IMG/VR virus record: IMGVR_UViG_3300006916_000200
Location: 1-32,044 of that record
Reading direction: 5' to 3' (one strand)
DNA length: 32,044 nucleotides
From: a virus
In this document: positions 4,222-23,051 of the stretch, piece after piece
How the letters are laid out: each line of letters starts with the position of its first letter
How positions within the stretch are numbered: position 1 is the stretch's first letter
Notes under the pieces: model-generated
The model's database searches: none
Told to the model about the DNA's origin: nothing
The model's input: only the letters and a program-made list of their open reading frames with translations
Made by a program: the position numbers and the translations under genes

Positions 4222-6092
4222 TAATCTCTCCCAGACATTTCATCTCTATACTCACGGTTCATCTGAAGCCATGGAGTGTAGAGTAAGTTTTTCTCTAATA
4301 GCAAATCTTTTTTACCTCTGTTCATTAATGCTCTACCGCCCCTAGTCTGAACCTCAGTGAGTCGTAAAGCATCAGCAATCTTTTTCATCGCAAGAGCTTT
4401 AGGGCTTAACACTGACATCGCTGAGTCAACAGGAGTTGCCCAAAGTTTTCTCATCTCCTTGATAGCGTCCATTCTTGCTCGCTCTTTGGTAGACAAAAGC
4501 TTTCCTAATTGCTCTTGAACATAGCGAACATCTTCAGCCGGAAGTTTTCCAAGAGTGTCGTTAACAGCGTCTATTGTAGCCTCATTAAGACCGAAGGCTT
4601 TTTTCTTTAAAAGACCTTTTCCTGTACCACTCCCAGTAACTACATCGTAAGCCTTGTCTCCAATAACATCGTAAGTTGAAGACTTCCATCCGGATGTTTG
4701 CTTTGGAGCTGGACCCATAATCCTGTCTACGGTTGCTCCCCAAGGAGCTACAACGCCTTCGTCCAATACTGTTAGCGGAGGTTGAGAACTAATTTTTTCT
4801 GGATAAGTTGTTCCAGTTGTTCTTAACTTTTGCTGACCTTCAATGGATGGTATTTTTTTGTACTGAGAGGCCTCAGGTACTACTTGCCCCATGAGTATTT
4901 CATCTTCAACATAAGGAGCTTTTCCAGGTAATATAGCATCTGGATCTTGCTTTAGCTTTTTCCAAACTCTAAATTTTTCCGCTAAGTCAGTGTCTAATGG
5001 ACTTAGATTCCCACCCAAAGGTAGTTTTTTTCCGCTTGATGTTGGTAAAGATCTGTAAGGCCCAACATAGTCTCCTTGTGTTGGCAAAGAACCGACCTCT
5101 TCAAACTTATCTCCGAGAACGCGTTTTAGTTTTTCAACGCCTCCCTCGCCTCTTATAGTTTCAAGCTGAGTCTGGGCTGGGGTTATCTTTCTTCCTTGCG
5201 GAAGTTCACGAATAAACTGCTCTCCCTCTTTAGCTCCTAAATCAAGGTATTTCTTAGCGTCAGCTTCCATAATATCAGCAATGCCTTGAAGCGCAGGGTC
5301 CTTGCTTTTTCTTATTTCAGCAATCTTTTCCATGAGTGGACCCATGGCTCTGTTCATATCTACTTCAGCACCTTTTCTTCCGGCCTCTAGAAGTATGCTA
5401 TTTCTTTGATCAAGGTATTGAGCCGCTAACTCATCAATCTGTTTTTGAATTTGTTCCGACGAGCCGACAACTCCTCTTTCCATTAGTAAGTCTGATACAG
5501 GCTCTTTTCCGTATTTAGCAGCCTGAATATCTAGCTCTTTTAATCCTGTTTTGTAAGACTTTCTACCAAGCTTATCATAAAGCTTAGCAAGACCAGACAT
5601 ACCAAAGGTGGAGTAAGTTAAAGGATCTAAGGCGATGTCACCAGTAAGTCCTGTTATTGTGTTTGCCGTTCCAGGAGTTGCTCCATCTCTTGCTTGAAAT
5701 TCACTCATTGTTGGAGCTTGCCCAGTTAAGGCTCTTTTAAAATCATCTGCTGTTACAAGGTTTGGTTTTTTTGCGTATTCGTTTTCTACACCGGCAGCTT
5801 CTAGAGCTTTAGCTAAAGCCCTTGGGACATTCATAAGTCCACGGTAACCAGTTCTAACCAAGCCACCAGGCATATCAGCCGTTCTCATTGCCATATCTAT
5901 AGGGTTAACTCCCTCTGGATCTGGAATAGCTTTCGTTCCTGACAAGACAGAGCCATCATCTTCATAAGGATCTCTCGCTGGTTCTAACTGAATTTCTCCA
6001 GATTCGGCGAGGTATTGAAGGTATTGATTAACCTCTTCTGGGTTTTGTCCAGAATCTATTAGGTATTGTTTGTATTCTTCGGCTTCACTCAT
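4221..6092 (-). CDS. Large internal virion / ejection-type protein
   Basis: 623 residues with no membrane segment. The N-terminus is acidic and Gln-rich (EEYKQYLIDSGQNPEEVNQY), then comes GLTGDIALDPLTYSTFG near residue 150, a motif I associate with internal or ejection proteins of podoviruses. Most of the remainder is helical, charged, low in cysteine, and ends in a basic region. Its place after connector, nozzle and other internal-protein-like genes supports a protein carried in the capsid and ejected with DNA. No lysozyme or transglycosylase motif could be identified, so enzymatic activity is not claimed. Confidence 0.55.
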   Translation of the reverse strand: MSEAEEYKQYLIDSGQNPEEVNQYLQYLAESGEIQLEPARDPYEDDGSVLSGTKAIPDPEGVNPIDMAMRTADMPGGLVRTGYRGLMNVPRALAKALEAAGVENEYAKKPNLVTADDFKRALTGQAPTMSEFQARDGATPGTANTITGLTGDIALDPLTYSTFGMSGLAKLYDKLGRKSYKTGLKELDIQAAKYGKEPVSDLLMERGVVGSSEQIQKQIDELAAQYLDQRNSILLEAGRKGAEVDMNRAMGPLMEKIAEIRKSKDPALQGIADIMEADAKKYLDLGAKEGEQFIRELPQGRKITPAQTQLETIRGEGGVEKLKRVLGDKFEEVGSLPTQGDYVGPYRSLPTSSGKKLPLGGNLSPLDTDLAEKFRVWKKLKQDPDAILPGKAPYVEDEILMGQVVPEASQYKKIPSIEGQQKLRTTGTTYPEKISSQPPLTVLDEGVVAPWGATVDRIMGPAPKQTSGWKSSTYDVIGDKAYDVVTGSGTGKGLLKKKAFGLNEATIDAVNDTLGKLPAEDVRYVQEQLGKLLSTKERARMDAIKEMRKLWATPVDSAMSVLSPKALAMKKIADALRLTEVQTRGGRALMNRGKKDLLLEKNLLYTPWLQMNREYRDEMSGRD

Positions 6093-10002: not shown

Positions 10003-12272
10003 GCGTTACTCCCCGATTGCCCAACCTCAAAGGTTTGCTGGGTTTGCGAAATATCAACCCAATGGATATTATAAGAAACCAGGTTCAAAACCTCTTCCCT
10101 CTTATACCCCTTGATAACCCACTTATATGATCCTGTTGGAAGATCATTTGCTGAATCAATTACAGACAGAACAGTATTAGAAGTCCTTGCGTCCACCTGA
10201 TATTCCTTCACATAACCATCAATCTCAGTAGCTATAAAGTAATCAACCACATCCGTAGGCCATGTATCAGAATCAATAGTCACAGTGTTTGCTGTATTAT
10301 CAAAAGTAGCTGTACCATAAACATCAGAATTATATATAGGAGCGTAACCATTTGTGATGACAGTATTCAAATAAGAAAGCCTTAGACCGCGAGCAGGAAA
10401 TCTTCTCCATTGCTCGATAACCCCTTCAGCGTTCCAAACACAATCTGGATTTCCCCATACGAACTCATCAGACCCCCACACAAAGTTAGTGCGAATTCTA
10501 ATGATATTACAGTTACGAACAGTTCTTCCTACATCACCAATCGCTGATATTTGAATTGTTACGTTACCTTCGTTACCCGCTGTTAGCTGAATCTTAGTTG
10601 GCATCTTCCTAAAGAATGTTCCACCAAAATTATTATTAATACTTTTATATGTCCAAATAATTGTCTCTGTATCCCAATCGCTAGGCGTAACTACGGTATC
10701 AACCTTGGGATCTGTTTTATTAGTCATCTCATGCTCGAAAACATAACCCCTTGAGTCGCCGCGATAAAGCTTCCCGTTGAAGTATTCTAAAGCAGTTGGC
10801 CTAAAGCTCGTTCCTGACCAAGTATAAAACGTACTCCTCGCACTAACTCCCCATCTTAAATCAAGAGCAATTATGGTGTCGTTATCTAAAGACGCTGATG
10901 CTGATTGAATTCCCCATAGAATACGCCTCTCAGTTTCATCAAACTTTCCGTATATTCTGTTTTGCTGAGATTGTGCATCTAGTATTGTTTTGTAGCGAGT
11001 ATTAATATTGTCAGATATTTTAATAACCTGATAACCATTAGTTGAATAAAAGCCATCATTACCAGCCCAGAACAATGCACCGGCACCGTTACCTGGATCT
11101 GCTTGGACTAATGACTGTGAACTCACACATCCGGCTGTATCAGACAGGCGAACAAAGTTAATGCCGCCCCTACCAAACTGATCGTAGTTACCTTCAAGCC
11201 TGTAGATATGACGTTTACATAAAACAATAGGAATAGAGTTAACACTGTGTATTCCGACAATTTCATCCTCCACTTCAATAAAGAAACTTTCGGGACAAGA
11301 ATCTGGGTCGCCTGGAACTGATTGCCTTATTCTAAATGGGTATTTATCGGACCCATCTTGAATAAAGCCATAGTAACCAATGTTGTTAACTACATGTAGG
11401 ACTTTACTTTCTGGAGTGGGATCGAAGTCAACAGTCCCATCGTTAGTATAGAGTAGAAGGCCAGAAGTGATACTAGCATCAGCAGCCGAATCATTATAGA
11501 TAGTTGTTCCATTTGTTACTTCTCCTATTTTGTAAAATACATCTCCACCTGCAATGGTTCTGTATATGAAAACTTTGATTACAGTTGTGTCCCAGTTGTC
11601 AATAACCCCGTTACTTATAACAGGTATGTTCGTTATATTAACAGTGTTTGAATCTGGAGCGGCTGCACTTGTTAAAGAAACCAACTCAGTTCTTCCAACA
11701 TCTTGAAAGGTTTGGTCGTTAACTGTGTATGTGTACTCATAATGAAATGCGTAAACATAAGAGTTGGCACCAGCGGCACCAGCCGTTACAGTTGGCGCTG
11801 AAGCAAGCTCTGGAAGACCAGATGTTCTTACCCTATAAGTTCCACCAGAATCTTTGTAAATCTTCTGTGGTCTTGGGAAGTCATCTGTAGTTAGGAATAT
11901 ATGATCATTCCACTGGCTATAAGAAAGTACATTTGTTGTATCGCCACTGGAAAAAACATCATTGCCTGAAGGACCAGTTAGTGTTGTATAGGCAGATGGG
12001 TTTCTGTAATAAATCTTATCAGAGCTATGAACGAACATCTTGTCGGAGTTTGCATAGTTAATTAAAGCTCCAACCCTTTGAACCCCTGCTGGGATTTGCG
12101 GATTGGTTTCGTCGTCTAAAACAGATCCTTCTCTGGTAATCAGTTTTCCATCAGAAGCAATATTGAAGTTATCAATAGTCTCGGCGGTATTATACTTTTG
12201 CTCGTATAAATCATCAGTGATACCACCTGAAAAATCATTAACCTCGAAGGGGTTATTATACTTAACCGCCAT
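9999..12272 (-). CDS. Tail nozzle / tail tubular protein B-like
   Basis: 757 residues, mostly beta strand. The N-terminus (NPFEVNDFSGGITDDLYEQK ... NFNIASDGKLITREG) is typical of podoviral tail tubular B-type and stabilisation proteins, which open with FSGG and a short list of strands. Further on, repeated strand-turn blocks (WAGNDGFYSTNGYQVIKIS; DERRILWGIQSAS-like segments) suggest a beta-propeller domain. Such proteins form the distal nozzle of the short tail. The ATG at 12272 begins MAVKYNN. Candidate family by architecture, length and neighbours. Confidence 0.65.
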   Translation of the reverse strand: MAVKYNNPFEVNDFSGGITDDLYEQKYNTAETIDNFNIASDGKLITREGSVLDDETNPQIPAGVQRVGALINYANSDKMFVHSSDKIYYRNPSAYTTLTGPSGNDVFSSGDTTNVLSYSQWNDHIFLTTDDFPRPQKIYKDSGGTYRVRTSGLPELASAPTVTAGAAGANSYVYAFHYEYTYTVNDQTFQDVGRTELVSLTSAAAPDSNTVNITNIPVISNGVIDNWDTTVIKVFIYRTIAGGDVFYKIGEVTNGTTIYNDSAADASITSGLLLYTNDGTVDFDPTPESKVLHVVNNIGYYGFIQDGSDKYPFRIRQSVPGDPDSCPESFFIEVEDEIVGIHSVNSIPIVLCKRHIYRLEGNYDQFGRGGINFVRLSDTAGCVSSQSLVQADPGNGAGALFWAGNDGFYSTNGYQVIKISDNINTRYKTILDAQSQQNRIYGKFDETERRILWGIQSASASLDNDTIIALDLRWGVSARSTFYTWSGTSFRPTALEYFNGKLYRGDSRGYVFEHEMTNKTDPKVDTVVTPSDWDTETIIWTYKSINNNFGGTFFRKMPTKIQLTAGNEGNVTIQISAIGDVGRTVRNCNIIRIRTNFVWGSDEFVWGNPDCVWNAEGVIEQWRRFPARGLRLSYLNTVITNGYAPIYNSDVYGTATFDNTANTVTIDSDTWPTDVVDYFIATEIDGYVKEYQVDARTSNTVLSVIDSANDLPTGSYKWVIKGYKREEVLNLVSYNIHWVDISQTQQTFEVGQSGSNA

Positions 12273-21602: not shown

Positions 21603-22721
21603 CTAATAGCTGATTGTGTGCATAATAGCGTTCTTCCATGGCGCTGTGCAGACTAAATCGCCATACAAAGCGTGATCCAGGATGTACGCGTAGCCTGTAG
21701 TGGCACGAGTCTCAAAAAACTCTTTCCCGTCTGGTGCTTTTCTTCTACGGAACATTCCGTTAGTGTAGAAAGTCACTGAATCCCAATCAAGGTACATGAT
21801 TACATCATCACCTTGCTCTTGAATTCCAACGATGCGAAGAGTATTCCCATCAACAGAGCCGACCTCAATAGTAGCCCAACCGTACTGATTAGTAGTACGA
21901 GAGTTAGGAACTACGTTGAAAGATCCCTTAGAAGTTTCAATAACTTTCAATACAGAACCGAAGTTCTTGAAAGACATTAATACTTCAGGAGCTTTTCCGC
22001 CCTTACCTTTAATCATGCGCTCGCTGTAACCATCGAAAACTTTTTCAACGATGTTCGCAGCAGTAACAGATGATCCGTTAACTTGAACAGCTTGCAAAAA
22101 TGGATAATCCAATTTTGTTTGGCCGAAAAGCGTTGCCGAGCCGCCGTTAGCAAGAGAAAGTAACTGAGACTTTAAGCTTGTGAACCCAGATGCCTGAGCA
22201 CCAGGATGATAAAGCTTCGCTGATTGAGCAACACTGTATGCGCTTAAATCAGCAGCAGCCCCGCCACGAGTGAGTGATAAAGTCACAGCACTTGTTTCGA
22301 TGTTGATTGCAATAACATAAACGTCAACAGCAGCAGAATCATCATCGTCAATAGAAGCTTTTTGAGATAGAGTAAATCTATCAATTCTATCAACAACAAG
22401 AACACCTGTTGCAGCGTTAGTGTCATCAGTTACCGTGGCAAATTCTGGTCCATCTAAAAGATGTACTGACATTACCATTTTCATATACTGCATCATACCG
22501 TCCACTTGGTCAGGTAGAATACGTAAGAACGTAGACTCAGGAATTTTCCCATCATGTTGAACTAAATCACGATGTTGAAAGATAAGTGAACTCCAGGCCT
22601 CAGGTTGAGTCGAGATAGTACCACGTACATAATCGTACTTAGCAATATCAGAATCAGCAGCAAGCTGACCAAATTCAACGCTTGAAGCGTGTTGTCCTTG
22701 GAACGGTACGATCAATTGACC
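21603..22721 (-). CDS. Major capsid protein, exon 2 (372 codons)
   Basis: Exon 2 begins with GGT at 22721, and the spliced protein reads ...DESWKG|GQLIVPFQG.... The 372 residues from here contain the capsid pattern GQLIVPFQGQHASSVEFGQ, YDYVRGTISTQPEAWSSLIFQHRDL, RILPDQVDGMMQYMKMVMSVHLLDG and the C-terminal EFFETRATTGYAYILDHALYG. The best-known relatives start with the 42-residue piece carried by exon 1. The ATG at 22724 that an ORF search chooses consists of the last three bases of the intron. The spliced product is 414 residues, HK97-type fold by inference. The decoration-like gene follows. Confidence 0.85.
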   Translation of the reverse strand, partial: GQLIVPFQGQHASSVEFGQLAADSDIAKYDYVRGTISTQPEAWSSLIFQHRDLVQHDGKIPESTFLRILPDQVDGMMQYMKMVMSVHLLDGPEFATVTDDTNAATGVLVVDRIDRFTLSQKASIDDDDSAAVDVYVIAINIETSAVTLSLTRGGAAADLSAYSVAQSAKLYHPGAQASGFTSLKSQLLSLANGGSATLFGQTKLDYPFLQAVQVNGSSVTAANIVEKVFDGYSERMIKGKGGKAPEVLMSFKNFGSVLKVIETSKGSFNVVPNSRTTNQYGWATIEVGSVDGNTLRIVGIQEQGDDVIMYLDWDSVTFYTNGMFRRRKAPDGKEFFETRATTGYAYILDHALYGDLVCTAPWKNAIMHTISY

Positions 22722-22925
22722 CATTCATGTTACTACCCTTTCGGGCGGGGAAAACTCTTCGGATTTCCCTCTTCGGCTTCTTTTGTTATACCGAAGATCA
22801 GACTGTCGCTTCCTATTTCTAGGTTCTCTCACTCAGTCGTTCAGCCTGGCTTTACCCTTGGCCCCTGTCGTCCACTTCTGGACTTCCAAGTCAATCAGAG
22901 AGAATTTTACAAGAGCTAGCCTTTA
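22722..22925 (-). ncRNA. Group I intron in the major capsid gene (204 nt)
   Basis: Read on the - strand. The 5' exon ends in U (22926), and the intron ends in G (22722). P1: exon AAGGGU pairs with the guide GCUCUU (22916-22911) with a G-U at the splice site. P3: TTCTCTC (22904-22898) with GAGAGAA (22830-22824). P4: CTTGG with CCAAG. P5: GTCCA with TGGAC, loop GAAG. P7: GACTG (22838-22834) with CAGTC (22805-22801), preceded by AAGCGA. P8: CCTA-GAAA-TAGG. P9: TCTTCGG with CCGAAGA; then GGGAAA with TTTCCC and CCC-GAAA-GGG. There is no internal ORF. P6 and a P2 are not evident. A small self-splicing ribozyme is the only reading that also repairs the capsid frame. Confidence 0.9.
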
Positions 22926-23051
22926 ACCCTTCCAACTTTCGTCCATTTTACATTTTTGTAGCAAGTAATCGCGCTTAATATATTCTTCTTTCAAGAGATC
23001 AAGCGGCAAATACTCGTTCAGCATTGAGCTGAAGTCTCTATTAGTTGCCAT
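22926..23051 (-). CDS. Major capsid protein, exon 1 (42 codons)
   Basis: ATG at 23049-23051 with AAAGGA-type ribosome binding site (AAAAAGGAAAAAACAA) upstream. The 42 codons give MATNRDFSSMLNEYLPLDLL, then KEEYIKRDYLLQKCKMDESW and KG, and stop at TAA, the first three bases of the intron. This N-terminus (helix, acidic, ending ...DESWKG just before the GxLIVPF strand) is what I remember from homologous intron-free capsids. It is far too short to be a separate gene of this type, and joined to exon 2 it is in phase. Confidence 0.88.

Follow-up and report, generated by a model that had tools for sequence, protein, structure and literature searches.

The window analysed here is an entire IMG/VR record of 32,044 bases, in which a 42-codon ORF and an ORF encoding 373 amino acids are separated by a 204-nt insert. 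The insert and both flanking coding segments lie on the minus strand, a point on which the preliminary description had been silent (Table 1). That description had called the gap apparently non-coding, and this holds: it starts with a UAA codon and contains no evident internal ORF. Its GC content is 47% compared with 41% for the window. Removing the insert, which falls between codons 42 and 43 of the capsid gene, joins the two ORFs in phase into a protein of 414 amino acids (...DESWKG|GQLIVPF...), also as proposed. The window reads TGGAAGGGT^intron^GGTCAA and is expected to give GGAAGGGU|GGUCAAUUG once spliced, compared with TGGAAGGGC|GGAACT in an uninterrupted homologue (L003). In two scans of IMG/VR the joined protein had 32 distinct relatives, and in those with an N terminus the W-K-G-G point is unbroken (at least 28 in an N-terminal listing, and every one of the 20 displayed across the junction). 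Because these homologues read straight through, they fix the splice sites, leaving G as the last intron base. They carry the predicted N-terminal extension and exclude a capsid protein that begins at MGQLIVPF without its first 42 residues, and the proposed insertion at a conserved position is borne out.

Table 1 Features of the interrupted capsid gene and its insert, in window coordinates
Feature	Position	Strand	Basis or remark
Capsid exon 1	22926..23051	minus	42 codons, MATNRDF...DESWKG; aligned to homologues
Group I intron, 204-nt, ORF-less	22722..22925	minus	opens with UAA stop, last base G; intron-free homologues and covariation
Capsid exon 2	21603..22721	minus	GQLIVPF...HTISY and stop; aligned to homologues
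P1	exon side AAGGGU 22926..22931, guide sequence GCUCUU 22911-22916	minus	sequence and P1 scan; U-G wobble at splice site
P3	5' strand UUCUCUC 22898..22904, 3' strand GAGAGAA 22824-22830	minus	double-sided changes in 6/7 pairs
P4	22887-22890 / 22864-22867	minus	encloses P5; invariant, uninformative for covariation
P5	22879-22883 / 22870-22874	minus	covariation in 3/5 pairs
P6	22860-22863 / 22843-22846 (region 22843..22863)	minus	three covarying pairs
P7 pseudoknot GACUG/CAGUC	22834-22838 / 22801-22805	minus	encloses P8; 4/5 pairs invariant
P8	22820-22823 / 22812-22815	minus	covariation in 4/4 pairs
P9	22791-22796 / 22771-22776	minus	covariation in 5/6 pairs
P9.1	22762-22769 / 22748-22755	minus	covariation in 7/8 pairs
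P9.2-like hairpin CCCGAAAGGG, then UAGUAACAUGAAUG up to 3' splice site	22736..22745	minus	sequence

We wrote the secondary structure by hand from the window and scored it across 29 distinct introns, aligned by MAFFT on sequence rather than on structure. All of the pairings proposed earlier (P1, P3, P4, P5, P7, P8 and P9) were found, together with P6 and P9.1. From P3 to P9.1, including the P3/P7 pseudoknot, 97.1% of cells were paired, and double-sided changes occurred in 29 of the 44 pairs. When partners were moved by 1-3 columns as a sliding control, pairing fell to 37-42%, and the covariation score was 0.523 versus 0.039-0.115 in the controls. As pairing and covariation lie far above these controls, the structure is not a product of chance, and the group I architecture suggested in the preliminary description stands. 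The invariance of P4 and of most of P7 makes covariation uninformative for these helices; the fifth P7 pair is G-C in the window alone and A-U in relatives. Single-sequence folding of the insert gave a modest signal (z -2.3).

The helices follow the group I order P3-P4-P5-P6-P7-P3'-P8-P7' with the P3/P7 pseudoknot. At the 5' splice site P1 carries a U-G wobble, in the window as across all 17 different curated sites, over which it spans 4-9 bp, and the intron ends in G at every curated site, in agreement with the U and G first noted at the ends of the window intron. Relatives also carry GUAACA close to the intron 3' end, and P10 is weak by eye in the window. By its sequence, the stretch 22925-22722 is a group I intron that lacks an ORF and interrupts the major capsid gene of a phage. 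For the coat introns at FHVD|TQF, we rejected a P1 placed directly before the AAAA that precedes P3, as comparison with intron-free coat genes reveals an extra hairpin (P2) between.

Scanning with the Rfam model RF00028 (Intron_gpI), a check on which the preliminary description would have let the intron fall, gave no match in the window even at E values up to 10, and the window accordingly lies outside the family at its gathering score. Searches of the window and its relatives against all of Rfam returned nothing relevant, RF00028 being silent in the relatives as well. This miss is not decisive because two of three phage T4 introns used as controls are likewise below the 50-bit cut-off (td at 40 bits, nrdB at 36 bits), with nrdD scoring 105 bits; the gathering score sets what the model detects and does not define a group I intron. 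The family model R1 matched 22748-22913 of the window with 177 bits, the window being one of its training sequences, and gave 93-158 bits at loci outside its training set (the CRP-118 ribonucleotide reductase, plasmid pTK9001, L058, L063, L091 and L094). With filters off, its best match in the three T4 intron loci coincided with the nrdD intron (E 0.078, 13 bits), which is suggestive only.

Because the window capsid protein had no match in Pfam or PHROGs, we relied on fold prediction, building an AlphaFold2 model of a 73%-identical homologue (L075) with 24 homologues (pLDDT 87.6). The best structural matches of this model were HK97-fold capsids (SU10, Foldseek E 1.7e-10; cyanophage A-1(L), Z 17.6), and portal and terminase genes lie upstream of the window gene in the same module. 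Judged by the model of its homologue and by this head-module position, the host gene is a major capsid gene with a predicted HK97 fold, in line with the identity first assigned to it. A tblastn search of phage records gave no relatives of the window capsid, and none were found in cellular genomes.

We regard it as nearly certain that a compact, ORF-less group I ribozyme interrupts this gene and splices to restore a 414-amino-acid HK97-fold capsid protein. P1 (AAGGGU/GCUCUU, with the U-G wobble at the cleavage site) would dock on the P3-P8/P4-P6 core, guanosine held at P7 would cleave at the 5' splice site, and the U released at the end of exon 1 would attack behind the intron's final G, so that the full-length protein is restored. 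The UAA at the intron start would halt ribosomes at the splice junction. Splicing is probably efficient in vivo, and the intron presumably neutral for the phage.

An in-frame AUG immediately before exon 2 could instead point to a decayed intron, a ribozyme that no longer splices, with exon 2 translated as a shortened capsid from this AUG at the intron 3' end. We consider this very unlikely: the core helices are all intact, the window-specific variants (G-C in P7, and others in P8 and P9) are compensated, the 42-codon exon 1 is still open and conserved relative to homologues, and sites at which it would be out of frame have the terminal AUG too. A reading of the insert as regulatory RNA in the space between two independent genes would suit the silence of Rfam on a group I intron, but is already refuted by the exact fusion of both ORFs in homologues, and relatives lie within other genes at many different points.

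The capsid intron of the window belongs to a larger family. By blastn, a copy with 78% identity over 165 nt was recovered inside the P22-like coat gene of phage MW202674, and 65 IMG/VR loci, found with two patterns drawn from intron sequence only, also carry relatives. Host genes were assigned from joined ORF tails and HMM scans of representatives, most loci being placed by similarity to a scanned representative. They comprised P22-like coat genes (41), phrog_9953 (16), phrog_14242 (2), PF25209 (1), a weakly phrog_267-like head gene (3) and ribonucleotide reductase (2, L006 and L058). Major head genes of several unrelated families account for 63 of the 65 loci, a figure that overstates the capsid bias, as two capsid introns served as seeds for the patterns and the loci include many near-identical contigs; counted by distinct site, there are 16 capsid sites and one reductase site. 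This count comes from a table of 17 sites with curated junctions, used because the automatic choice was wrong at the 3' splice sites of several loci; L015, where P1 is not settled, was excluded. Further reductase members lie in a gap between two reductase halves of the CRP-118 phage and on the Thioalkalivibrio plasmid pTK9001 (L071:2487-2692), where the exons read by eye as ...TNP|CGEQPLPP, placing the intron at the NPC active-site codon; the PLSDB table lists no gene there. The reductase copy at L058:4536-5298 (minus strand) has an HNH-like ORF inserted in P8 and is a probable mobile form. In MW202674, the intron contains the ORF annotated as hypothetical protein UOF80274.1 (L002:3015-3134).

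P22-like coat genes hold introns at seven sites, and the window capsid family at three: WKG|G (window), YVR|GTIS (L091) and NHR|DLM (L094). Since many nodes of the intron tree are poorly supported, we used only sister pairs. In three of these the partners occupy different sites: L014 and L032 are 95% identical, L063a and L063b are each other's best match and come from one phage, apparently from one gene, and L091 and L094 (support 0.94) have a short P5 in common. From these sequence relationships we infer transposition within genes, with reverse splicing as the favoured though unproved mechanism. That the family spread to new sites through pairing of guide and exon RNA is less certain. Exon ends of the form CCGT^, which match the intron guide, occur at 7 of the 17 sites compared with 0.17 expected from the same genes, although the motif was noticed post hoc. 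This excess is a prediction of guide-directed insertion, but it fits equally well with insertions by other routes that survived only where the guide matched.

Such sites might instead have arisen by DNA-level homing, through endonucleases either encoded or free-standing. We rate this explanation, which concerns the spread only, as a real if doubtful possibility: it would accommodate the HNH-like ORF of L058 and the collaborative homing known for ORF-less phage introns (reviewed in PMC3984707), but the different sites have only ~4-5 nt in common next to the 5' splice site, as the CCGT^ excess illustrates, and no homing-endonuclease family was recognized among the subset of window ORFs tested. 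Tentatively, and with confidence somewhat short of even, we propose for the family as a whole a mostly ORF-less group I lineage, unseen by Rfam and found almost only in phage major capsid genes, that has jumped repeatedly by guide-directed reverse splicing and probably originated from an intron at the NPC active-site codon of a ribonucleotide reductase.

Two contigs carry more than one insert. The phage L063 has two members of the family (10693-10860 and 12006-12175) within what looks like a single capsid gene. Long extra sequence follows each of them, and a possible ORF accompanies the first. In L094, a 65-nt insert at ~4250-4330 (CTCTATGACTTCGGG...TTATATG) lies in the same capsid gene as the intron, between ISVQP and EVWG; it is too short for a group I intron; a remnant, a translational bypass element and a misassembly are all conceivable. 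A second L094 insert of ~278 nt (~5430-5710), near the capsid gene 3' end (CLFG then LVCTAPWKN), includes a short ORF and a stretch resembling a group I intron, and R1 does not match it.

Most reports of phage group I introns concern genes for nucleotide metabolism, polymerases and terminases, and transposition by reverse splicing, long proposed, has rarely been caught in protein genes. A family in major head genes, spanning several unrelated capsid families and at least 13 sites, offers a natural series for testing such transposition. It also suggests that split-looking capsid genes in environmental phages may be intact, and warns that RF00028 misses introns of this kind. Our search of the open-access literature found no paper describing the family or its capsid preference. 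Capsid introns and phage introns of ~206 nt are already published, and the window intron adds another example; the family pattern is of greater interest than the window intron alone.

Among known systems, the T4 nrdD, td and nrdB introns, which belong to subgroup IA, have the same core order as the window intron, and nrdD is identical to it in the P7 3' strand and the sequence that follows (AUAGUCUGAAC). Like the window intron, td and nrdB lie below the RF00028 cut-off, whereas the T4 introns are larger, through ORFs or otherwise, and R1 scores them weakly. The capsid intron of mycobacteriophage LittleE, whose splicing was demonstrated by RT-PCR (PMC3706429), likewise interrupts a major capsid gene and is of group I type, with U before the 5' site and G at its end, but is ~819 bp long and encodes an endonuclease; the likeness described here is one of these general features. 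That paper also cites a capsid intron in lactococcal Tuc2009. In size, a close parallel is with the Jug huge-phage introns, which, in the sections of PMC12363816 used here, average ~206 nt, have RNA reads supporting splicing of 37 of 76 predicted introns, and are reported in terL and nrdD rather than in a capsid gene. The preliminary description had ranked the window intron with the shortest known group I introns; its compactness is borne out at 204 nt, but beside these averages its size is not exceptional. A relative by sequence is the coat-gene intron of Podovirus ctn9Y15 (MW202674), of the same family as the window intron but hosted by an unrelated P22-like coat gene, which is annotated as two genes and with an intron ORF that is probably spurious.
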